Shown: positions 1,811 through 36,631 of the stretch, in pieces | Layout: every line of letters begins with the position of its first letter | Numbering within the stretch: the stretch's first letter is position 1 | Assembly: GCA_012727425.1 (NCBI GenBank) | Contig: JAAYHQ010000021.1 | Span: 1-36,765, forward strand | Reading direction: 5' to 3' | DNA length: 36,765 bases | From: Bacillota bacterium | GTDB lineage: Bacteria; Bacillota; UBA4882; UBA10575 | The notes under the pieces: model-generated | What the model saw: only the letters and a program-made list of their open reading frames with translations | Told to the model about the DNA's origin: nothing | Databases searched by the model: none | Position numbers and translations under genes: made by a program

Positions 1811-3082
1811 TCAGGGAATTTGTTCTCCATGGCTATTTTTGTCCCCCGATCCCTCCTTTAAATCATCTAAACCAAACTCCTCATGCAGGGCACGAAGGGC
1901 TTTGATCATATCTTCCTTCTTGACCAGACAGGCAATGTTCGTATGGGAATCGGCCGTCTGAAACAGGGGAACCTGCGCCTTATGTAAGCCTTGAACCACC
2001 CGGGCCATCACCCCGGGCACCCCCCGAATCCCCGCTCCCACAATGGCCACTTTAGCAAAACCTTTCGCCGCTTTAAACTCCAATCCGGTCTGTTCCAAAA
2101 TGGAAAAAGTCCGGTCAAACAGACTTTCTGGCACCGTAAAGATAATCTGCTCCGGGGTGACCTGAATCATATCAATACTAATCCCGGCCTCCGCCAAACG
2201 GGTAAAGACCTCCAAAGCTTTTCCGCTGGAATTGACATTCTCCGGACAGACCAGGTCAAACTGGGCTAAATCCGGAATATGAGCCAAACCGGTCACCATG
2301 CGGTCGGATTTAAGCTCCAAGCCCGGCTGGACCGGATATGCATCACAGACCAGCGTTCCTTCCTGGTCGGAATGGACGGACCTGATCTTGAGGGGAATGC
2401 GCCCGCGCTTCGCGATCTCCACCGCCCGGGGATGGATCACTTTTGCCCCCAAATGCGCCATTTCGCATAGTTCCTCATAGGTCATGACCTTCAGTAACTT
2501 GGCTTTCGGCACCAGATTGGGGTCGGTCGTCATCACCCCGTTTACATCAGTATATATCTCAACGGCCTCGGCCGCCAAAGCCACTCCTAAAGCTGCGGCG
2601 GTGGTATCACTGCCCCCGCGGCCCAGTGTCGTCACTTCGCCCTTTTGGGTTTGCCCCTGAAAACCGGCCACCACCGCCACCTGTTTCTGGTGCAAACAGC
2701 CAACGATCTTCTCCGGATTGACCTCTATAATGTGAGCATCCCCAAAATTACTGTCGGTAATGATGCCCGCCATCCCGCCGGCGAAAGCCCGTGCTGGCAC
2801 GTGGTGTAGTTTTAAAGTCTGCACCATGATTACCGTGGAGATGAGTTCGCCGCAGGAAAGTAATAAATCCTGTTCTCTGGGGTTAATCTCGGTACAAATC
2901 TCACGGGCCATGGCCAGCAGCGTGTCCGTGGCATAGGGCGCGCCGTACCTGCCCATCGCCGAAACCACAACCACCGGCACATATCCGCGCTCCAGTGCCT
3001 CCTTGATCCGGGCAACCGCTTTCTCGCGCAGCGCCGCCGTGGCCAGAGAAGTGCCGCCAAACTTTTGAACCAAGATACGAAT
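1811..3082 (-). CDS. dapG: Aspartokinase (DapG-type, monofunctional)
   Basis: The enzyme phosphorylates aspartate, the entry step to diaminopimelate, lysine, threonine and methionine. KFGGTS near the N-terminus is the kinase signature; [26 protein letters not shown] and [12 protein letters not shown] are typical nucleotide- and aspartate-binding segments. Two ACT domains follow (about 265-400; [11 protein letters not shown] and [17 protein letters not shown]), which in this family mediate amino-acid feedback. The start is unusual: an in-frame TGA ends 6 nt before position 3082, and the only well-placed Shine-Dalgarno (AAGGAG, 9 nt upstream) points to ATT at 3082. That gives [12 protein letters not shown], which matches the N-terminus I recall for Bacillus DapG. 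The first conventional start is TTG at 3073, 18 nt from the same motif. A GTG at 3092 is out of frame. Bacillus carries asd just before dapG; it is missing here. Confidence 0.93.
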
Positions 3083-3164
3083 GGGTGCTCACTCCTTCGT
3101 CGCTTATTTAAGTTTTACCAGTTTTCTCTGGAGATTTCAACCTTATTTTTTCTGTCCGGCACAA

Positions 3165-3743
3165 TCATTGGAGCAGCGGTTGAAGCTGTTTCCCGGCCAG
3201 GGCGTGGATAACCGTCGGTGTAATCAGCTCCATCTTGGCCACCAACGAATTGGGTTTGCGGTCCGGTTCATCTTGCCCAAAAGGCACAAAATAAATGAAT
3301 TTCCGGTTCAGTAGCATCCCCAGGTTCAAGAGATTCGCTCCCAAGCCGTCGTTGGTGGAGATCGCCAGGACCACCGGGCGTTCATTCCGTAACTGAGCTT
3401 TACAAGCCAGGGTTACTACCGTGTTGGAAACCCCATGGGCCAAATGGCTGAGGGTTGTACCGGTGCAAGGGGCCACCACGATAAGATCGAGGAGTCTTTT
3501 CGGCCCAATTGGTTCAACCTCGACCAAACTTTGCCAAGGCTCGCGTCCGGTGATTTCAACCAACGTTTTATGAAGCTCCTCCCCTTTCCCAAACCGGGTG
3601 TCGGTCTGGAGTACATAAGGGGAAGCGATGGGGAACAGTTCCGCCCCCGCCGCCCGAAGTTGCCTAAGCGCGGGGATGACCTCCGGAATCGTACAGTAGG
3701 AACCGGTGAGACCAAAGCCGATCCGCACACCTGTCAATTGCAT
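3165..3743 (-). CDS. dpaB: Dipicolinate synthase subunit B
   Basis: DpaB (SpoVFB) is the flavoprotein-like subunit that, with DpaA, makes dipicolinic acid in the mother cell for the spore core. VRIGFGLTGSYCTIPEV near the start, TRFGKGEEL, GPKRLLDLIVVAPCTGTTLSHLA, RPVVLAISTNDGLG and FVPFGQDEPDRKPNSLVAKM are conserved SpoVFB blocks with a flavin-decarboxylase-like (Flavoprotein) fold. I chose ATG at 3743, which has GGAGGG 6 nt upstream and starts directly at the conserved domain. The frame extends to a TTG at 3782 that overlaps the dpaA stop, but that start has no good Shine-Dalgarno. It follows dpaA by about 35 bp and precedes dapG. Confidence 0.95.
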   Translation of the reverse strand: MQLTGVRIGFGLTGSYCTIPEVIPALRQLRAAGAELFPIASPYVLQTDTRFGKGEELHKTLVEITGREPWQSLVEVEPIGPKRLLDLIVVAPCTGTTLSHLAHGVSNTVVTLACKAQLRNERPVVLAISTNDGLGANLLNLGMLLNRKFIYFVPFGQDEPDRKPNSLVAKMELITPTVIHALAGKQLQPLLQ

Positions 3744-3778
3744 TCTCAACCCTCCAAGCTGAACTTTTATCCTGTGTC

Positions 3779-4675
3779 TCAATCCGGTCGGCTTAGTTCC
3801 TGTTTAATCAAGCCTGGAAGGTTGGTGGCAAGGATCCGGCCGGCGGTCTGCGGCGCGACTTTCCCCGGAAGTCCTAAAGCCAAAATAGCCGTCAGCCGGT
3901 AGCGCGCAGCCGCTTCAAAATCAACACCACCGGGGGCGGAAGCCAGATCAATAATCAGTGTTTCCGGAGACATGCGGGCCAGAAGGGGAGCGGTGAGCAC
4001 CAAGGCCGGAATCGTATTGAAAACCACGTCGGCCTGGGTAACCGCCTGGTCGAGACGACTAAGGGGTAAAGATTGATAACCCAAACCGGCGGCGGCAGCC
4101 AATTGCTGCGGATTACGGGCGGCAACCGTAACCGCCGCCCCCAAGGCCTGTAACCGGGAGGCCAAAGCCCGGGCCACCCGTCCAAACCCCAAAATCAGAC
4201 AGGCCGCGCCATCTACCGTATACGATGTTTTTTCCATCATCAACTGAATAGCGCCTTCGGCAGTGGGAATGGCGTTGGGGATGGCGATCGCATCGTGATC
4301 GGCATATTCGCAGACCCGAACCCCGTTTTCACGGGCCATCTGTTTTAAATGGGCCGGGAACTTTCCGGTAACCAGCAAGGCTTTCTTTTCCACCAAGGCG
4401 AAAAACGCCGGGTCAATTTTGATATCGACCGTCGAAGCACAGGTTTTGACCATTCCACGGGCGTCAGCTCCACTGATCGGGAGGATAACAACTTGTGCGC
4501 CGGTGAGCGCCTCTTTAAGATCGGTTGCCGGCTGCAGACGGGGTACCGTCGGTAGTCCGGTCAAACCCAACGTTTTCACCCAGGGCGCCACTGTGAGCAT
4601 CGCCTCGGCGACGAACACTTGCCGGTCGTCACCACCCAAGACCGCTACACCGCCATCAATCGGAAATCGTGCCAA
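3779..4675 (-). CDS. dpaA: Dipicolinate synthase subunit A
   Basis: DpaA (SpoVFA) is the NAD(P)-dependent dehydrogenase-like subunit of dipicolinate synthase. The 298 residues show an N-terminal VAVLGGDDRQVF segment (10-21), where SpoVFA proteins have a similar GGD.RQ motif, and a second Rossmann segment at 158-185 (ACLILGFGRVARALASRLQALG, with GFGRVA at 163-168). The conserved NAIPTAEGAIQLMME occurs at 134-148. TTG at 4675 is the start: GGAGGG lies 7 nt upstream and no better codon is near. A 145-200 bp leader separates it from dapB and carries a possible terminator and a candidate sigma-K promoter, so dpaA may head its own late-sporulation transcript dpaA-dpaB-dapG-dapA. Confidence 0.95.
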   Translation of the reverse strand: MARFPIDGGVAVLGGDDRQVFVAEAMLTVAPWVKTLGLTGLPTVPRLQPATDLKEALTGAQVVILPISGADARGMVKTCASTVDIKIDPAFFALVEKKALLVTGKFPAHLKQMARENGVRVCEYADHDAIAIPNAIPTAEGAIQLMMEKTSYTVDGAACLILGFGRVARALASRLQALGAAVTVAARNPQQLAAAAGLGYQSLPLSRLDQAVTQADVVFNTIPALVLTAPLLARMSPETLIIDLASAPGGVDFEAAARYRLTAILALGLPGKVAPQTAGRILATNLPGLIKQELSRPD

Positions 4676-6016: not shown

Positions 6017-6733
6017 TTATTTTTCTTCCTGTTCTTCGCCGGAAAAGTATTTAAACAGTTTTTTTAAGGCCTTTTTTTCAATGCGGGAGACATAGGAACG
6101 GGAAATCCCCAAAACTTTGGCGATCTCGCGCTGGGTTTTGCCGAAGCCGTCCCGCAGTCCGTAACGCAGTTCGATCACTTTCTGCTCTCGTTTGCTCAAA
6201 ACATGCAGCTTTTTACGGAGCGTTTCTTCTTCCATTTTCCCCTCAACAACCTCCGGCACCAAATCGGTGCCCGTATCCAAGATATCCAGCAGGGTAAGCT
6301 CATTTCCTTCTTTGTCCGCGCCGATCGGATCCTGTAAAAAAACATTGTTCTTCATCTTTTTGGTGGAACGCAAATGCATCAGAATCTCATTTTCAATACA
6401 CCGGGCCGCATAGGTTGCCAGGCGGGTATTGTACTTCCTTTGATAGGTATTAATCCCCTTGATCAAGCCGATGGTCCCGATGGAGATCAGATCATCGTTG
6501 TCTTCACCGGTGTTGTCAAACTTCTTGACGATGTGGGCCACCAAACGCAGATTCCGTTCGATCAAAGTATTTTTCGCTTCCGGATCACCGGCCTCCATCC
6601 GCCGGATCAAAGCCTGCTCCTCCTCTTCCGTGAGCGGCATGGGAAAAACATTGTTATTGGCAATATACGAGACCAACCAGGCAAACTGCTCATAAATCAG
6701 GTTGAGCAGCATCCCGATCCATGGAAGGATCAT
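6017..6733 (-). CDS. sigK: RNA polymerase sporulation sigma factor K
   Basis: Sigma-K directs late mother-cell transcription (coat, cortex, dipicolinate). The 238 residues contain a hydrophobic N-terminal pro-sequence (1-22, MILPWIGMLLNLIYEQFAWL) followed by VSYIANNN; by analogy with Bacillus pro-sigma-K, processing would fall near Ser22-Tyr23. Region 2 (55-125) has NLRLVAHIVKKFDNTGED and DLISIGTIGLIKGI, the sigma-K hallmark, and ATYAARCIENEILMHLR. Region 4 (180-225) ends in the helix-turn-helix TQREIAKVLGISRSYVSRIEK. The gene is whole, with no skin-type insertion. ATG 6733 has GAGGGGG 7 nt upstream. It leads the ylmC-dapB-dpaA-dpaB-dapG-dapA cluster. The 239-bp gap upstream holds no gene; AGGACA-17-TATAAA there is a weak possible promoter. 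Confidence 0.95.
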   Translation of the reverse strand: MILPWIGMLLNLIYEQFAWLVSYIANNNVFPMPLTEEEEQALIRRMEAGDPEAKNTLIERNLRLVAHIVKKFDNTGEDNDDLISIGTIGLIKGINTYQRKYNTRLATYAARCIENEILMHLRSTKKMKNNVFLQDPIGADKEGNELTLLDILDTGTDLVPEVVEGKMEEETLRKKLHVLSKREQKVIELRYGLRDGFGKTQREIAKVLGISRSYVSRIEKKALKKLFKYFSGEEQEEK

Positions 6734-6972: not shown

Positions 6973-8547
6973 CTAAAGCAAAGGTAAACAACTCTCCATC
7001 AACGCGGCAAACAGCGCCGCCGCCCGCTCCGCCCCGCCGGGTTCATCCTCCAGCAGGACCACCCCCACCAAGCGCGGCGCATGGGCCGGGGCGTAACCGG
7101 CAAACCAACTGTGAAAGACGGGCTGCTCACTGCGGTAGCCGGCTAGGACCATCCCATCAACACCCGACGCCTCCTGCCGGATCTGGGCCTTTTGCCCGGT
7201 ACCGTAGAGCACCGTTGCCGCCAACATCTTGCGTAGTGCCGCCACGGTCGCTGCCGTCAGGACCCGACGGCCCGGCCCTGTTACAGACGAAAGCCCCGTC
7301 CCATCCTCCCCCTGCAGCCCTTCCACCACAGAGGGGGGATAATAGACGCCGTCGCCAGCGATGACCTGTAGGAGCGCCGCGATCTGGACCGGGGTGACGG
7401 TAACCGGCGCGGCACTGCTAAACACGGATGCACCAGCGTCCACCGCATCCGGCGGCGGTAAAAACCCCGTCTCTTCCCCCGGGAAACCAAGCGTCGCCGT
7501 CCCCAAACCGCAAGCCTGCGCCATGGCCACAACCGGTTCCATCCCAAGCACCGACGCTACTTCCTGAAAAACCGGCCGTGCGCCGTAGGCAAAGGCCTGG
7601 GTCAAGGTGATTAAACCGGGGCCGGCTGCGGTCTCACCGATGAAAACCTGGTCCGGATGGAATTGTCCCCGCTCTAAAGCCGCGGCCGCCATGACTAAAC
7701 GCCACAGTCCGCCCGGCGGATACGCCGCCAACGCCCGGTTCTGGAGCGAACGGTCCGGGTCGTTCAGAGCGAGCAGCGGACGGTAGGGGTCAAAAACCGG
7801 TCGGCTGGCCAAAGCCCGGAGCTTCCCCGTCCCCACTTCCATCAGCACCACCGCCCCCTTGGCGACGCCGGCCTCATCCAGCAGCTTCTCGACCTTACTC
7901 TGTAAAGTAAAGTCCAGGGTCAAAACCAAGTTTCCAACCGGCCGTCCCCCGGTCTCCTTCTGATAGCGCCAGCCCAGGCCAGGAATGGGACGTTGGCGGG
8001 CATCGGTCATCACCGCCAGTTTGATACGGCGGTCACTGGCCAAAAACTCATCGTACACGGCCTCGAGCCCGGCAATTCCTTCCCCGGTCGCCGGGTGCAC
8101 ATACCCCAACAAGTGGTGAGCCAAAGGGTGGATCCCATACCGTAAGGGGATCGTACAGAAGGTCACCCCCGCCATGGGCCGTTCGGCCACAAAGCGGAGC
8201 AGATCGGCACCGGGGCTGGCGATGGTCACCGGTGTATGGGCATCCATCCTGATGTGGTGGGCGGCCAGCAAAGGCGTAAGCGCTTTCCGTTCTTCCGCGG
8301 TCAGCAACGGCGGAAAGACGGCGAGATAGGTTTGGTGGTCCCGCCCGGTCAGCGGCCGGCCCTGATAGTCCAAGATCGCGCCCCGCTGCCGGTAAAGGGC
8401 TAAACCGTCACTCCGCTGGTTAACCGCCTTGCGCGCCCATTGCCAATTGCCGGCCACCTGAATGGCGTAAAGACGAATGGCCAGGCAACATCCGGCCAAC
8501 AGTAAGACCACCCACAAAAAACCAATCCGTTGTCTTCTTTGCCCCAC
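6973..8547 (-). CDS. Class B penicillin-binding protein homologue with a lost active site
   Basis: The 524 residues have the layout of a class B PBP: a TM anchor at 9-28, an N-terminal dimerisation region (RGAILDYQGRPL at 55-66, the usual RGxIxDRNG), and a transpeptidase-like domain from about 205. None of the three catalytic motifs survives. YPPG at 276-279 is followed by GLWR (280-283) where active enzymes have STFK, so the nucleophile Ser is Gly and the Lys is Arg. The SxN triad is Gly-Ala-Arg (322-324). KTG after the conserved LAG is Tyr-Arg-Ser (471-473), just before HSWFAGYAPA. The frame is otherwise complete and well conserved, which points to a pseudoenzyme rather than decay. GTG 8547 has GGGAGGGG 7 nt upstream, inside a hairpin. 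It follows mltG, so a scaffolding or regulatory role in wall synthesis is a reasonable inference; nothing shows it directly. Confidence 0.85.
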   Translation of the reverse strand: MGQRRQRIGFLWVVLLLAGCCLAIRLYAIQVAGNWQWARKAVNQRSDGLALYRQRGAILDYQGRPLTGRDHQTYLAVFPPLLTAEERKALTPLLAAHHIRMDAHTPVTIASPGADLLRFVAERPMAGVTFCTIPLRYGIHPLAHHLLGYVHPATGEGIAGLEAVYDEFLASDRRIKLAVMTDARQRPIPGLGWRYQKETGGRPVGNLVLTLDFTLQSKVEKLLDEAGVAKGAVVLMEVGTGKLRALASRPVFDPYRPLLALNDPDRSLQNRALAAYPPGGLWRLVMAAAALERGQFHPDQVFIGETAAGPGLITLTQAFAYGARPVFQEVASVLGMEPVVAMAQACGLGTATLGFPGEETGFLPPPDAVDAGASVFSSAAPVTVTPVQIAALLQVIAGDGVYYPPSVVEGLQGEDGTGLSSVTGPGRRVLTAATVAALRKMLAATVLYGTGQKAQIRQEASGVDGMVLAGYRSEQPVFHSWFAGYAPAHAPRLVGVVLLEDEPGGAERAAALFAALMESCLPLL

Positions 8548-8550
8548 GAG

Positions 8551-8592
8551 AAAACCCCTCCCTGGTTAATTTAACCAAACAAGGAGGGGTTT
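8551..8592 (-). promoter_or_regulatory. Stem-loop that buries the PBP-like gene's ribosome-binding site
   Basis: A 10-bp stem (AAACCCCTCC with GGAGGGGTTT, 8552-8561 and 8583-8592) encloses a second inverted repeat, GGTTAA-T-TTAACC (8564-8576). On the minus strand the 3' arm overlaps the Shine-Dalgarno GGGAGGGG (8555-8562). It begins about 26 nt after the mltG stop. A short TTTT follows, so it could also act as a weak terminator after mltG. Confidence 0.65.
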
Positions 8593-8618: not shown

Positions 8619-9758
8619 TTAATTTTGCCCCGCAGCCGTCTGCGCCAACTGGTTTTGGGCCCGGAGATGTTCCCGGTAAGTACGGGAAAAAACATGGGTC
8701 CCGTCGGGTTTGGCAAAGAAGTAGAGGTAATCGGTCTCCGCCGGTGACAAAACCGCCTGGAGGGAAGCGCGGCCGGGGTTCCCGATCGGGGTCGGCGGCA
8801 AACCTTGGTACAGGTAGGTATTATACGGAGAGTCAATCTGTAAATCCCGGTACAAAAGGCGTGGTTTACGCTCACCAAGAGCGTACTGGACCGTAGCGCA
8901 GGATTGCAAAAGTTGGCCCCGTTTCAAACGGTTGTAAAAGATCCCCGCAATAATCGGACGTTCTGCTTCCACTTTGGCTTCGCCCTCCACAATGGAAGCG
9001 AGCGTCACCAACTCCACCGGAGAAAACCCTAACGGCGGCTGCACATCTTTCGTCACTTCCGCCCAGACCTGACGGAACCGTTGGAAAAACACCGACAAAA
9101 TCTCTTCTTCCGTCGCTCCCTTGGCAAATTCATAGGTGTCCGGGAAAAGGAATCCCTCACCAGAAACGGGAGCAAACTCGACCAGTTGTGAACGGAGAAA
9201 GACCCGGTCATGCAAGAGTTCCTGGAAACGTTCTTCATCAACCAGACCCTTGTTGCTCAGTAAACGTCCAATTTCCGCCATAGTGTAACCTTCCGGAACG
9301 GTAACGCGGTAGATTATCGGACGGCCTGTTTTTAGCTCCCGCAGTAAATACCGGAACGAAAACTCCGGTCCAAACTTGTAATGACCGGCTTTCAATGAGT
9401 TTTGTTGGCCAGTAAGATAGAGGTACCAAACAAAACTACGCTTGTTCTTGATTAAACCTTTCTCCTCGAGGAGCGACCCAATTTGAAAGACCGAGGAGCC
9501 CAATGGAATATCAATTGTACTCTGTTGCGGATTGTAAACCTTCCGGTTTATTTGCACCCCGTTATAAATCCAGACTGCTTGTCCCACTAAAAAAATGAGG
9601 CCGCAGCAGAATAAAGCTGGCAAAGCCAATTGAAAACGAGACCGGTCTCGCCGGACCGGTCTGAACAACCGGGAGATACTCTGGAACAAGAAACGGATGA
9701 ATTTAAGACCCGGGAGAACCCGATTATTGGGGTGGGGAAGCGTGTTGTGTTTTCCCAC
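8619..9758 (-). CDS. mltG: Endolytic murein transglycosylase (YceG/MltG family)
   Basis: MltG cleaves nascent glycan strands at the outer face of the membrane and sets their length. The 379 residues contain a basic cytoplasmic tail (1-43), one TM helix at about 44-65, a LysM-like part (IPLGSSVFQIGSLLEEKGLI at 84-103; VTVPEGYTMAEIGRLL), and the YceG catalytic domain. The catalytic Glu is Glu258 in LASIVEGEA; GFLFPDTYEF, FYNRL and YNTYLYQGLPPTPIGNPG are also family blocks. GTG 9758 has AGGAGGG 6 nt upstream, and a TATAAT lies at 9779-9784. The ruvX-yrzB-mltG order matches Bacillus (yrrK-yrzB-yrrL). The inactive PBP gene that follows is not part of that known order. Confidence 0.96.
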   Translation of the reverse strand: MGKHNTLPHPNNRVLPGLKFIRFLFQSISRLFRPVRRDRSRFQLALPALFCCGLIFLVGQAVWIYNGVQINRKVYNPQQSTIDIPLGSSVFQIGSLLEEKGLIKNKRSFVWYLYLTGQQNSLKAGHYKFGPEFSFRYLLRELKTGRPIIYRVTVPEGYTMAEIGRLLSNKGLVDEERFQELLHDRVFLRSQLVEFAPVSGEGFLFPDTYEFAKGATEEEILSVFFQRFRQVWAEVTKDVQPPLGFSPVELVTLASIVEGEAKVEAERPIIAGIFYNRLKRGQLLQSCATVQYALGERKPRLLYRDLQIDSPYNTYLYQGLPPTPIGNPGRASLQAVLSPAETDYLYFFAKPDGTHVFSRTYREHLRAQNQLAQTAAGQN

Positions 9759-10965: not shown

Positions 10966-12498
10966 TTACCGCTCGGAAGGAACAATCAACCGCACTTGGT
11001 AACTGTGTTTCGGAACCGTATCCACCTCCGGTTTGCCCGAAAACTCAACCAGACCAACCTCGGGAAAAGCGGTTAACGCCTCTTTCGCCTCCGGCAAAGA
11101 TTTGCCGGCGATCGCCCGCATGACCTTGTCCCGGTCAATCTGTCCCCGGATCTTCGCCACCGCCAGCACGTTAACCTTTGCTTCTTCCAGTTTGCCTTCG
11201 GCCTTCACTTCCCGGCAAGCAATCTCGTTGGTAACGGGCCGAAAACCCACTGGTAATGTCTGATACATGTTATGTTCCAACCACTTGTAAAGGTGCGTTT
11301 TACTCAGTAAAGGAGCAACAATTTTATAAGCCACTTTCACCGTTAATGTGTTACTTTCCGTCCCCACCGGTTGCTCCGCACGCACTTGGCCAAGCTCGGT
11401 GGTTATTAACTCCGGCAGTAACAAATAACCCTCTTCCGCCAGTTCGTTGACGACCGCTTCCACCCGTAACGCCACCTGCCGCTTTGCTTCTGCTTCCGCC
11501 CGCCGCAGGTCTTCCTCCTGCACCACCGGGACCAGACGGTCTTCACCCGTCGTAAACCGCTGCGGGTTAATCACATGTAACGTATTGGCCAGATGTCCCT
11601 CAATGACGGTAATCATCTGCCGCTCCACATTGCCTACGGTCCCCTTTTCAACGGCTTCCACTTCGACTTCGGCCTGGCCGTAGTTTTCACCGGTCGGCAC
11701 CCCCAGTTCATAACGGGTGCTTTTCTTCGGGACCACCACCGGTTTGGTTGTCACAAACTTCGTCCCTGTTTTGGTCGCCACCACGGTCCCTTTGGGCACA
11801 ATAACCGGGTTTACTCCGCTGTTGATGAAGTAGACCGTTCCTCTGGCCGGAACGTCGCCCACCCGCTTCCGTCCAGTGGTCGCTAGGGACACACTCAATT
11901 CATCCTGTTTCTCCTGGAGTTTCAGTGGTAAATTCCCCTGCAGAACTTCCCGTTCACCAAATTTGACACTGGCAGCCGCCACCGTCCGGAACATGTGGTC
12001 CCGCGTGGCCGGATGAACGATAATACTAAGCCGCGGTCGAAAAAGAAGAAAGGCCGCCACCAGTAAACTGAACCCGGTCACCCCTAACGCCAACAGCAAA
12101 CGGCCCCCCCGCATGGGCGGAACGGTCAGGGGAACCTCTTCTTCCCGGACCGGAACCGCTTCCGCGGTCATCTCCTCCAGTTCGATCGGCAGATGATTCT
12201 GATAAACCTCCGGTTTCTCCTCTTTCTCCGCCTCCAGCTTCTCCTTGATCTCCATCCCTAACCGGGCTGCAAGCTTACGAACCGTCCGGTCCTTCACCAC
12301 CAGAACAAGTTCTTTTTCCTCTTCTTCGCTGTAGTACTTTAAAAGCCGCAGATTAATCTCGTTCCGGAGAAAAGGGACCCGGGTCGGTGAATAAATAATG
12401 ATGCGGTGGCTTACACTTTCCCGCATTTTTCGGATTAATCCATGCACCGTTTCATCCCGTGCGACCGGGATCACTTCCGTTTTCCGCAATGCCCACAC
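10966..12498 (-). CDS. Membrane-anchored baseplate-J-like protein
   Basis: The 510 residues divide into a cytoplasmic N-terminal domain (about 1-95; VSHRIIIYSPTRVPFLRNEINLRLLKYYSEEEEKELVLVVKD), an acidic linker, one TM helix (131-154) and a long outer part. The outer part has a GTVYFINSG...VIVPKGTVVATKTGTKFVTT segment and a YGQAEVEVEAVEKGTVGNV segment, which resemble the Baseplate_J domain found in contractile phage tails and also in many Firmicute membrane proteins. No other phage gene is near, so this is not a tail component. The function is unknown. GTG 12498 has GGAAGAAGG just upstream and overlaps the end of the preceding phosphatase-like gene by 47 bp, which suggests translational coupling. 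Confidence 0.8.
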   Translation of the reverse strand: MWALRKTEVIPVARDETVHGLIRKMRESVSHRIIIYSPTRVPFLRNEINLRLLKYYSEEEEKELVLVVKDRTVRKLAARLGMEIKEKLEAEKEEKPEVYQNHLPIELEEMTAEAVPVREEEVPLTVPPMRGGRLLLALGVTGFSLLVAAFLLFRPRLSIIVHPATRDHMFRTVAAASVKFGEREVLQGNLPLKLQEKQDELSVSLATTGRKRVGDVPARGTVYFINSGVNPVIVPKGTVVATKTGTKFVTTKPVVVPKKSTRYELGVPTGENYGQAEVEVEAVEKGTVGNVERQMITVIEGHLANTLHVINPQRFTTGEDRLVPVVQEEDLRRAEAEAKRQVALRVEAVVNELAEEGYLLLPELITTELGQVRAEQPVGTESNTLTVKVAYKIVAPLLSKTHLYKWLEHNMYQTLPVGFRPVTNEIACREVKAEGKLEEAKVNVLAVAKIRGQIDRDKVMRAIAGKSLPEAKEALTAFPEVGLVEFSGKPEVDTVPKHSYQVRLIVPSER

Positions 12499-14536
12499 AC
12501 CTTCTTCCTGCCTGTTTTAATAAGGCAAAAAGACCTCTCCGCTCCCGTGCCATCCACTGATCAGCCAGGATAATCAGCGGATAAAGAACCAAAGGAGCCA
12601 GCACCACAATCCCCGAATCATTGGCCAGGAAAGCAACCAGCCCTGTTTTGACTGCGATGATCACCCCTGGCCGGTACCATTCCGCTTCCGGCTTTGGCCG
12701 GTCCGGAGCAGTTTTTTTCTCCGCCACCCGCAAACCAACAAGGAAAATAAGATAAACCAGTAAAAGCGTTGGCCCCCATGGGCTATAGTTGATTAACTCC
12801 AGATTCATCCGGATTTTGCGCACCGCAATGGCACCAAGCTCTTCCCATGCACCCAAACGTAACAACCGGAAGGCATTATGAAGATGGGTTGTCCCCCCTG
12901 CAGACACATAGAACATCTGCACGCCCAACCCCACCAACAGGCAGCAGGCAAACAACAGCAAGTTCCGCCTGGCGAGCGCCGCCGGTTTCATCCGGCGGCC
13001 GATCAGCCCGGCGGCGTAGGTAAGGGCCACGCCGCCGCCAAAATTGGCTCCCCAAACCGGCGAAACAATCAGCAAAACCACGGCCCCCAGCAGGAGTCCG
13101 CTCCACTTCCGTCCCGGGGAATGGATCAGGGAATCGGCAGTCCCCAAAAGGAAAACGCCGAGCAAAATCCCCAGATACTCGTTGCCCAAACCGTAAAAGC
13201 GGTGTCCCAACACCGGACTGGGCCCTAGTAAGGAAGACAGCATCAACTTGGCTCCAAAAAACAGATCAACCAGAATCACCAGGGCTGTCCCGAGCAAAAG
13301 CCCCCGGTAAGCCGACCGCCGGGTGGGAAAAAACCACCGGAGGAGGGCCCACAGCCCACCGCTGCCCAAAACAAGAAAGAGGGCCAAGAAAAGCCAATTG
13401 GTGATTCGGAATGGTGCCAGCAGGAGCAATGTCAAAGGCACAGCGGCCAAAGCCGGTAAAACCGCTCTGACATATGTCGTTGCCCGGTACCACGGGGTTA
13501 AAGGTAACCACAGCGCCACCAGCAGCCAGCAGACGAGTAAAGAAAGGAAAAGATGGAGGATGCGCATTCGTTGCCGCAAATTAATCCCCCAATAGCGCCG
13601 TTCTTCCTGTAACTGGGACCAATCACCCGCCGTCCACCAACGACGGCCGCTTGCTTCCTCCACCGTACCGCTGGTCAAGTCGGTAATCAGGGTCGCCAGA
13701 TCATCCGCGGTGATTAGCCCCGGTTGCCGGGTCGCCGGGGACGTCAGTAAACCCGGTGCATTCCTTTTCTGTTCTATTAATAACGGAAGGAGCGGCAGAT
13801 CGTTCCCGTCCTTAGTCGAGGACGGAACGGCCACCAAAAGCAAGAGCACCGTATTTCCCGGAGTTGCCGCGCTGAGGCGCGCCAGAAAGGCATCAATCCG
13901 CTTCAGCGTTATCGCTCGCAGCCGCGACCATTGTTCGTCCGTCATCAGCCCGCGGTAGCCTTCTAACCGTTCCAAATCCCCGGTCTCGACCAGGATGAGG
14001 TCGGTGGTGGGGAGCAAAGCGAGGACCAAATCGCCAAGTCGTTGGTAATCAGTCCGCAAGCCGAAGGGAAAAGCCACATCGGCTTGTAAAATCCGCCGGT
14101 CACTAAACTCGTAATCGACAACACCAGCGTGATCGCTGAGGAAAATGCGGGCGCTCCGGTTTGGTTGCCAGGGAAGATCGGCATTACCAAGAAAAGCCGT
14201 TCGTAGTCCCGCTTGGCGCAGACGAGAACCAAGCTTCCCGCGTACCGGTTCCCGCTTCCCCTCTCCTGGAGTGGACACCGCACTAAAAGCCGTAAAAACC
14301 TTTTCCGGGGTTAGTCGCCCCGCCACCGGAACCACAACCAGACCGACCTGGCCCTGCGTTAAAATCCGCTGCAAACAGGGGTAGTCCGCCGTATCAAAAT
14401 CGGCAAAATCAACCCGGGTCAAATTCACCAGAACCAATTTGGCAGCGGGGCTTCGGCCAATTGCCGCTGCGGGAAGCGGAAAAACAACAATCAGTAAAAA
14501 GAACAAAAACCATCGGCAACCTTTATTTTTGATCAT
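12452..14536 (-). CDS. Polytopic membrane protein with an alkaline-phosphatase-like ectodomain (unnamed)
   Basis: I do not recognise a named family. Residues 1-27 are an export signal. Residues 30-310 form a soluble outer domain whose blocks (LVLVNLTRVDFADFD, then LRQAGLRTAFLGNADLPW, TDLILVETGDLERLEG, NTVLLLLVAVPSS and ADDLATLITDLTSG) follow the order seen in alkaline phosphatase/sulfatase-fold proteins; the typical metal-binding DG/DS-T and DHG motifs are not evident. From about 330 onward are nine or ten hydrophobic helices, with GLGNEYLGILLG and ANFGGGVALTYAAG between them, and a short basic cytoplasmic tail. ATG 14536 has only a distant GGAG. It starts 26 bp after the AI-2E gene and overlaps the baseplate-J-like gene. 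An envelope-modifying role is a guess. Confidence 0.7.
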   Translation of the reverse strand: MIKNKGCRWFLFFLLIVVFPLPAAAIGRSPAAKLVLVNLTRVDFADFDTADYPCLQRILTQGQVGLVVVPVAGRLTPEKVFTAFSAVSTPGEGKREPVRGKLGSRLRQAGLRTAFLGNADLPWQPNRSARIFLSDHAGVVDYEFSDRRILQADVAFPFGLRTDYQRLGDLVLALLPTTDLILVETGDLERLEGYRGLMTDEQWSRLRAITLKRIDAFLARLSAATPGNTVLLLLVAVPSSTKDGNDLPLLPLLIEQKRNAPGLLTSPATRQPGLITADDLATLITDLTSGTVEEASGRRWWTAGDWSQLQEERRYWGINLRQRMRILHLFLSLLVCWLLVALWLPLTPWYRATTYVRAVLPALAAVPLTLLLLAPFRITNWLFLALFLVLGSGGLWALLRWFFPTRRSAYRGLLLGTALVILVDLFFGAKLMLSSLLGPSPVLGHRFYGLGNEYLGILLGVFLLGTADSLIHSPGRKWSGLLLGAVVLLIVSPVWGANFGGGVALTYAAGLIGRRMKPAALARRNLLLFACCLLVGLGVQMFYVSAGGTTHLHNAFRLLRLGAWEELGAIAVRKIRMNLELINYSPWGPTLLLVYLIFLVGLRVAEKKTAPDRPKPEAEWYRPGVIIAVKTGLVAFLANDSGIVVLAPLVLYPLIILADQWMARERRGLFALLKQAGRRCVGIAENGSDPGRTG

Positions 14537-36376: not shown

Positions 36377-36453
36377 TGGTGCCAAGGGACGGAATCGAAC
36401 CGCCGACACGGGGATTTTCAGTCCCCTGCTCTACCGACTGAGCTACCTTGGCA
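36377..36453 (-). tRNA. tRNA-Phe (GAA)
   Basis: A 77-nt cloverleaf including the encoded CCA. Acceptor TGCCAAG/CTTGGCA, D arm GCTC..GAGC, anticodon stem GGGGA/TCCCC with loop CTGAAAA (anticodon GAA), T arm GGCGGTTCGATTCCGTC. Last gene of the cluster. Confidence 0.95.
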
Positions 36454-36462
36454 ACTATATTA

Positions 36463-36539
36463 TGGCGGAGCCGACGGGACTCGAACCCGCGATCTCCAGC
36501 GTGACAGGCTGGCATGTTAGCCGACTACACCACGGCTCC
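36463..36539 (-). tRNA. tRNA-Asp (GTC)
   Basis: A 77-nt cloverleaf with CCA encoded. Acceptor GGAGCCG/CGGCTCC, anticodon stem CCAGC/GCTGG with loop CTGTCAC (anticodon GTC), T arm GCGGGTTCGAGTCCCGT. Confidence 0.96.
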
Positions 36540-36554
36540 AACTTTTCATTTTAA

Positions 36555-36631
36555 TGGTGGTCGCGACTGGACTCGAACCAGTGACCTCTGCGATGTGAAC
36601 GCAGCGCTCTAACCAACTGAGCCACGCGACC
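36555..36631 (-). tRNA. tRNA-Val (CAC)
   Basis: A 77-nt cloverleaf with CCA encoded. Acceptor GGTCGCG/CGCGACC, anticodon stem CTGCG/CGCAG with loop TTCACAT (anticodon CAC), T arm ACTGGTTCGAGTCCAGT. First gene of the cluster. Confidence 0.95.

Follow-up and report, generated by a model that had tools for sequence, protein, structure and literature searches.

A predicted catalysis-dead member of the C. difficile PBP3 family, conserved between mltG and sigK in one family of Bacillota

The 36,765-nt stretch of DNA analysed here (the window) carries the gene order ruvX-DUF1292-mltG-PBP-sigK-dapB-spoVFA-spoVFB-dapG-dapA (Table 1). RuvX, MltG, SigK, DapB, and dipicolinate synthase A and B were confirmed as neighbours of the PBP gene, and the locus is therefore that of a spore-former; the DUF1292 neighbour had no NCBIfam match and was named by resemblance. 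Beside ruvX lie two membrane- or envelope-like genes on the minus strand (10966-12498 and 12452-14536), which have no NCBIfam match, are kept across the family, and are present in some class relatives. Three tRNA genes are clustered at 36380-36631 (minus strand), and an Rfam search of the window returned tRNAs alone.

The PBP is encoded by one unbroken ORF; the original prediction was right in describing a complete frame here, and its strand is now corrected to minus. The PF00905 transpeptidase domain, the only domain found, scores 117 bits (cut-off 22), and the transmembrane (TM) helix and pedestal that accompany the transpeptidase fold were placed by alignment. A domain profile search found no PASTA domain. 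AlphaFold, given an alignment of this protein and one relative, returned a pLDDT of 33.

Table 1. Features of the mltG-PBP-sigK locus (coordinates within the window).
Feature	Coordinates	Strand	Basis or remark
sigK, mother-cell sporulation sigma factor, downstream neighbour	6017..6733	-	TIGR02846, 352.5 bits vs cut-off 298.65
Class B PBP gene, predicted catalytically dead, orthologue of C. difficile PBP3	6973..8547	-	524 aa, GTG start
KTG position, reads VDG (residues 463-465)	7153..7161	-	Alignment with active relatives and SpoVD
SxN position, reads GAR (residues 322-324)	7576..7584	-	Alignment with active relatives and SpoVD
SxxK position, reads GLWR (residues 280-283)	7699..7710	-	Alignment with active relatives and SpoVD
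Terminator-like hairpin, conserved, mltG/PBP intergenic	8551..8592	-	3' arm carries the Shine-Dalgarno (8555-8562); U-run abuts start codon
GGTTAAATTA, hairpin apex, sigma-F -10-like (GGnnAnAnTw), putative promoter element	8567..8576	-	Sequence pattern
mltG, conserved upstream neighbour	8619..9758	-	TIGR00247

The best PDB match for the protein's profile is C. difficile PBP3 (7rd0; 348 bits, vs 263 bits for the SpoVD of the same organism, 7rcz), and 7rd0 is also the top PDB match when the protein is used as a single query. The C. difficile PBP3 locus is cd630_12290 (PMC12713402); CD1229 is listed as sigma-F controlled, and CD1230 is sigK (PMC3789822). An earlier remark that no such partner was described for the ruvX-yrzB-mltG locus is thus superseded, since the same locus is that of C. 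difficile PBP3 (CD1229), beside sigK. The protein is nearer in sequence to CdPBP3 than to SpoVD, FtsI, or PBP2; it shares the class B architecture of TM helix, pedestal, and transpeptidase without PASTA, at 524 aa against about 530-570 aa for the family; and a SigK equivalog is encoded directly downstream, as in class relatives. However, CdPBP3 differs in having intact SxxK, SxN, and KTG motifs, a zinc site, and a catalytic activity needed for full sporulation. Because features of sequence, architecture, and synteny agree with PBP3 and the catalytic and zinc features depart from it, the gene is assigned to the C. difficile PBP3 (CD1229) family as a predicted catalytically dead derivative. SpoVD (TIGR02214) is a related sporulation class B PBP; the protein reaches 119.5 bits against the 688 cut-off of that equivalog and lacks PASTA, and an intact SpoVD is encoded elsewhere in the genome, on a different contig.

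The original prediction that all three catalytic motifs are replaced stands for the SxxK and SxN positions; for KTG it had proposed YRS (residues 471-473; 7129-7137), which falls off the KTG column in alignments. In every alignment this column reads VDG, with EASGVDGMV in the protein opposite RVAGKTGTAQ. In CdPBP3 and SpoVD a zinc tetrad includes the Cys of SxN and an invariant His (PMC9334274). This site is missing here: a loop is deleted or shortened, GPG stands for GHG, and GAR for SCN.

Orthologues were found in 12 genomes from four genera of the same family (g1, g4, g5, and g6), and wherever the contig is long enough the PBP lies between mltG and sigK. The KTG lysine is absent from 12/12, and the SxN asparagine from all 11 readable orthologues, the twelfth (G001) having Ns across SxN; the genes of G001 and G014 contain internal runs of N. 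SxxK is lost from every readable orthologue except that of G014, which alone keeps SLFK, alongside SCH and LTG, a pattern that suggests earlier loss of the KTG lysine and the SxN asparagine. Residues at the former Ser (G/V/T/P) and Lys (V/A/L/Q) positions vary between genera, and no new conserved nucleophile appears at the pocket positions among the dead-clade sequences. The frame is open in all family orthologues, with readable ORFs down to 46-50% identity. The dead clade is monophyletic (100/100) and placed beside active class relatives. Assembly error as the cause of motif loss is ruled out by its recurrence in 12 genomes; likewise, the earlier concern that relatives with normal motifs might reveal such an error or recent decay falls away, since near relatives are all dead and only distant ones at the same locus are intact. 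On sequence grounds, the motif loss is fixed in the family, and the pseudoenzyme appears real and well conserved.

Outside the family, class relatives in f5 and f3 carry an orthologue of 490-574 aa upstream of sigK. In these, sigK is near the PBP in 9/9 homologues and directly adjacent in 8/9, and all three motifs are intact in each of the nine read; in f5 the PBP adjoins sigK, not mltG. Among 98 homologues sampled from the phylum as best-scoring matches, and hence not at random, S..K, S.N, and K[ST] are all present in 97. Of the sampled homologues, 43 have a recognisable sigK close by, 49 have mltG, and 28 have the pair, many stretches being too short to hold both genes. The ordered mltG-PBP-sigK locus is widespread in the phylum. 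Two genera of the family, g2 and g3 (L101, L102, L103, L104), lack the PBP and have mltG beside sigK; the gene is dispensable there, since it was lost while gpr and, mostly, spoIIR remain. The g3 genomes have sigK in the opposite orientation to mltG and dapB. Separately, the gpr of an order-level relative (G016; L245, L246; G016:C21) occurs in several pieces in separate open frames, as if broken.

Purifying selection, which the original prediction had proposed as a check, is evident in the PBP gene, whose pairwise dN/dS within the genus is 0.14-0.25 (at a dS of about 0.55-0.75 for the closest pairs and high values for more distant ones); corresponding ratios are 0.10-0.17 for MltG and 0.04-0.13 for SigK. 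Because the ratio is roughly 1.5-2x that of mltG, and exceeds those of sigK and dapB by more, constraint on the PBP gene is somewhat relaxed. Identity in pedestal segments is 67/45/63% in the dead clade vs 40/25/34% in active relatives; for the SxN and KTG segments it is 44 and 38% vs 53 and 50%. The non-catalytic HSWFAGYAPA and YGTGxKAQI segments have w of 0.05-0.11. In a conservation-shift test, 43/504 circular shifts were as large as that observed (44/306 inside the transpeptidase domain), a weak and only suggestive result. These data lend moderate support to a move of conservation off the active site and onto the pedestal.

The conserved mltG/PBP intergenic hairpin varies in its outer stem between genera with pairing kept (e.g., CCCCTCC/GGAGGGG, CCACCC/GGGTGG), and its apex GGTTAAATTA is kept in all copies but one. 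The hairpin motif TGGTTAAATTAACC occurs at the mltG-PBP locus in 10/16 family genomes and almost nowhere else, as a single copy in nearly every carrier; a genome-wide repeat was rejected on this basis, a looser pattern occurring at background. Active f5 relatives also carry GGTTAnAyTA. It lies within a comparable hairpin, except for one copy (GGTTACAATA) around which no stable hairpin forms. A DNA palindrome operator is less likely, because the f5 version is not palindromic yet keeps GGTTAnAyTA. In B. subtilis the sigma-F -10 pattern is GGnnAnAnTw, and the variable letters of the apex motif coincide with its free positions; the C. difficile pattern is reported to be very similar to that of B. 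subtilis. We infer a sigma-F-type promoter inside the hairpin. A transcript starting there would have a short leader with its Shine-Dalgarno free, and read-through from mltG would end in termination or leave the Shine-Dalgarno paired. A search for a sigma-F-type element in gpr and spoIIR leaders gave no match in the same family, and f5 matches near gpr resemble the coding sequence of the gene upstream; sigma-F does not control gpr and spoIIR in every clostridium.

Seven other PF00905 proteins score above the cut-off in the genome, all (7/7) with S..K, S.N, and KTG intact. The genome has two SEDS proteins, one near spoVD on contig C20 and one near a PBP2-like gene on C57. Since both stand beside active class B partners, the dead PBP would have no dedicated SEDS protein and would act as an accessory.

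Work from 2025 shows that C. difficile PBP3 acts partly independently of catalysis, as judged from an S299A variant (PMC12713402, PMC12539705). This protein is made in sporulation, with SpoVD, SpoVE, FtsQ, PBP1, and PBP2 as partners (PMC12713402, PMC12539705); its S299A form still promotes asymmetric division alongside SpoVD-S311A (PMC12713402) and septum synthesis with PBP1-TPase* (PMC12539705). In B. subtilis, the class B protein PBP2B likewise keeps a part in division when its catalysis is inactivated (as relayed in PMC12713402), although PBP2B is an essential vegetative protein and its inactive form arose by laboratory mutation, not by natural loss. The open-access literature searched yielded no account of a natural catalysis-dead class B PBP. 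A non-catalytic role for the protein encoded here is plausible.

Given the orthology to PBP3, the fixed motif loss, the purifying selection, the intact SpoVD, and the two SEDS proteins, we consider it probable that the protein is a natural catalysis-dead PBP3 kept as an accessory of the sporulation divisome and SEDS machinery. The ancestor of the four genera would have lost transpeptidase chemistry stepwise, starting with the KTG lysine and SxN asparagine, continuing with SxxK, and ending with the zinc site, and PBP3 would have been kept for a non-catalytic job it already had, its catalytic role being dropped. Anchored in the membrane by its TM helix, the protein may use the pedestal and the outward face of its dead domain to contact sporulation division proteins (SpoVD with SpoVE, a class A PBP, or both), and could promote septal or forespore wall synthesis, with cross-linking left to intact SpoVD and other PBPs; its timing would follow from the putative sigma-F-type promoter. 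The original prediction, in which a pseudo-transpeptidase keeps a non-enzymatic role, is upheld to this extent, the loss being fixed, the frame open, selection purifying, and constraint shifted off the active site. Against this accessory role, C. difficile is distant from the present lineage, g2 and g3 dispense with the gene, and catalysis still matters in C. difficile, being required for full sporulation and spore yield (PMC12713402).

The losses in g2 and g3 could instead be the end point of a slow decay, in which PBP3 catalysis became dispensable, the gene is eroding, and residual conservation reflects folding and membrane insertion without toxicity. The elevated dN/dS relative to mltG and the differing motif residues among genera would fit such erosion, but every readable ORF is open even among divergent orthologues, dN/dS is still low overall and lower again in the non-catalytic segments, and the leader motif is kept nearly letter for letter; we regard decay as unlikely, although it is the rival we take most seriously. 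A dead PBP3 might also act negatively, competing with SpoVD for SpoVE and thereby restraining forespore septal or cortex synthesis. In C. difficile, sporulation is poorer in the S299A complement than in the deletion strain, a result for which competition for SpoVE was proposed (PMC12713402), and this finding, which also counts against an activating accessory, gives the idea its footing; however, in the two other settings cited above this variant promotes division, and the sequence evidence does not separate a brake from an activator. A negative regulator seems improbable to us.

Two further functions are very unlikely. The idea, raised originally, of a pseudo-PBP that holds or adjusts MltG, the lytic transglycosylase whose gene lies upstream, draws on an adjacency seen in the family and in many phylum members, but active members, too, commonly have mltG upstream, a terminator-like hairpin separates the two genes, the f5 PBP lies beside sigK and away from mltG, and g2 and g3 retain mltG without the PBP. 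Equally slight is the chance of a repurposed pocket that senses or binds muropeptides or beta-lactams, or performs new chemistry: the fold is still recognisable by profile, yet the pocket positions vary between genera, without a new conserved nucleophile.

One genome of another family, G167 (f50; L185), has a PBP (2095-3825, plus strand) adjoining sigK and mltG in which SxxK reads PIFK and SxN reads SCD with KTG kept, while sister sequences have S..K, SCN, and KTG intact. This appears to be an independent, partial motif loss at an early stage; because it was seen once, it is open to sequencing error. A sporulation PBP would then have turned pseudoenzyme at least twice, and so a catalysis-free function, with forespore expression from a promoter lying inside the mltG terminator, might be the ancestral, selectable core role of PBP3, a proposal to which we give slightly less than even weight. 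A clade without the active site yet with the gene offers an evolutionary test of the catalysis-free PBP3 claim, as a natural counterpart of the 2025 C. difficile experiments. The conserved pedestal, YGTGxKAQI, and HSWFAGYAPA segments mark the likely seat of the non-catalytic function and supply residues to probe.
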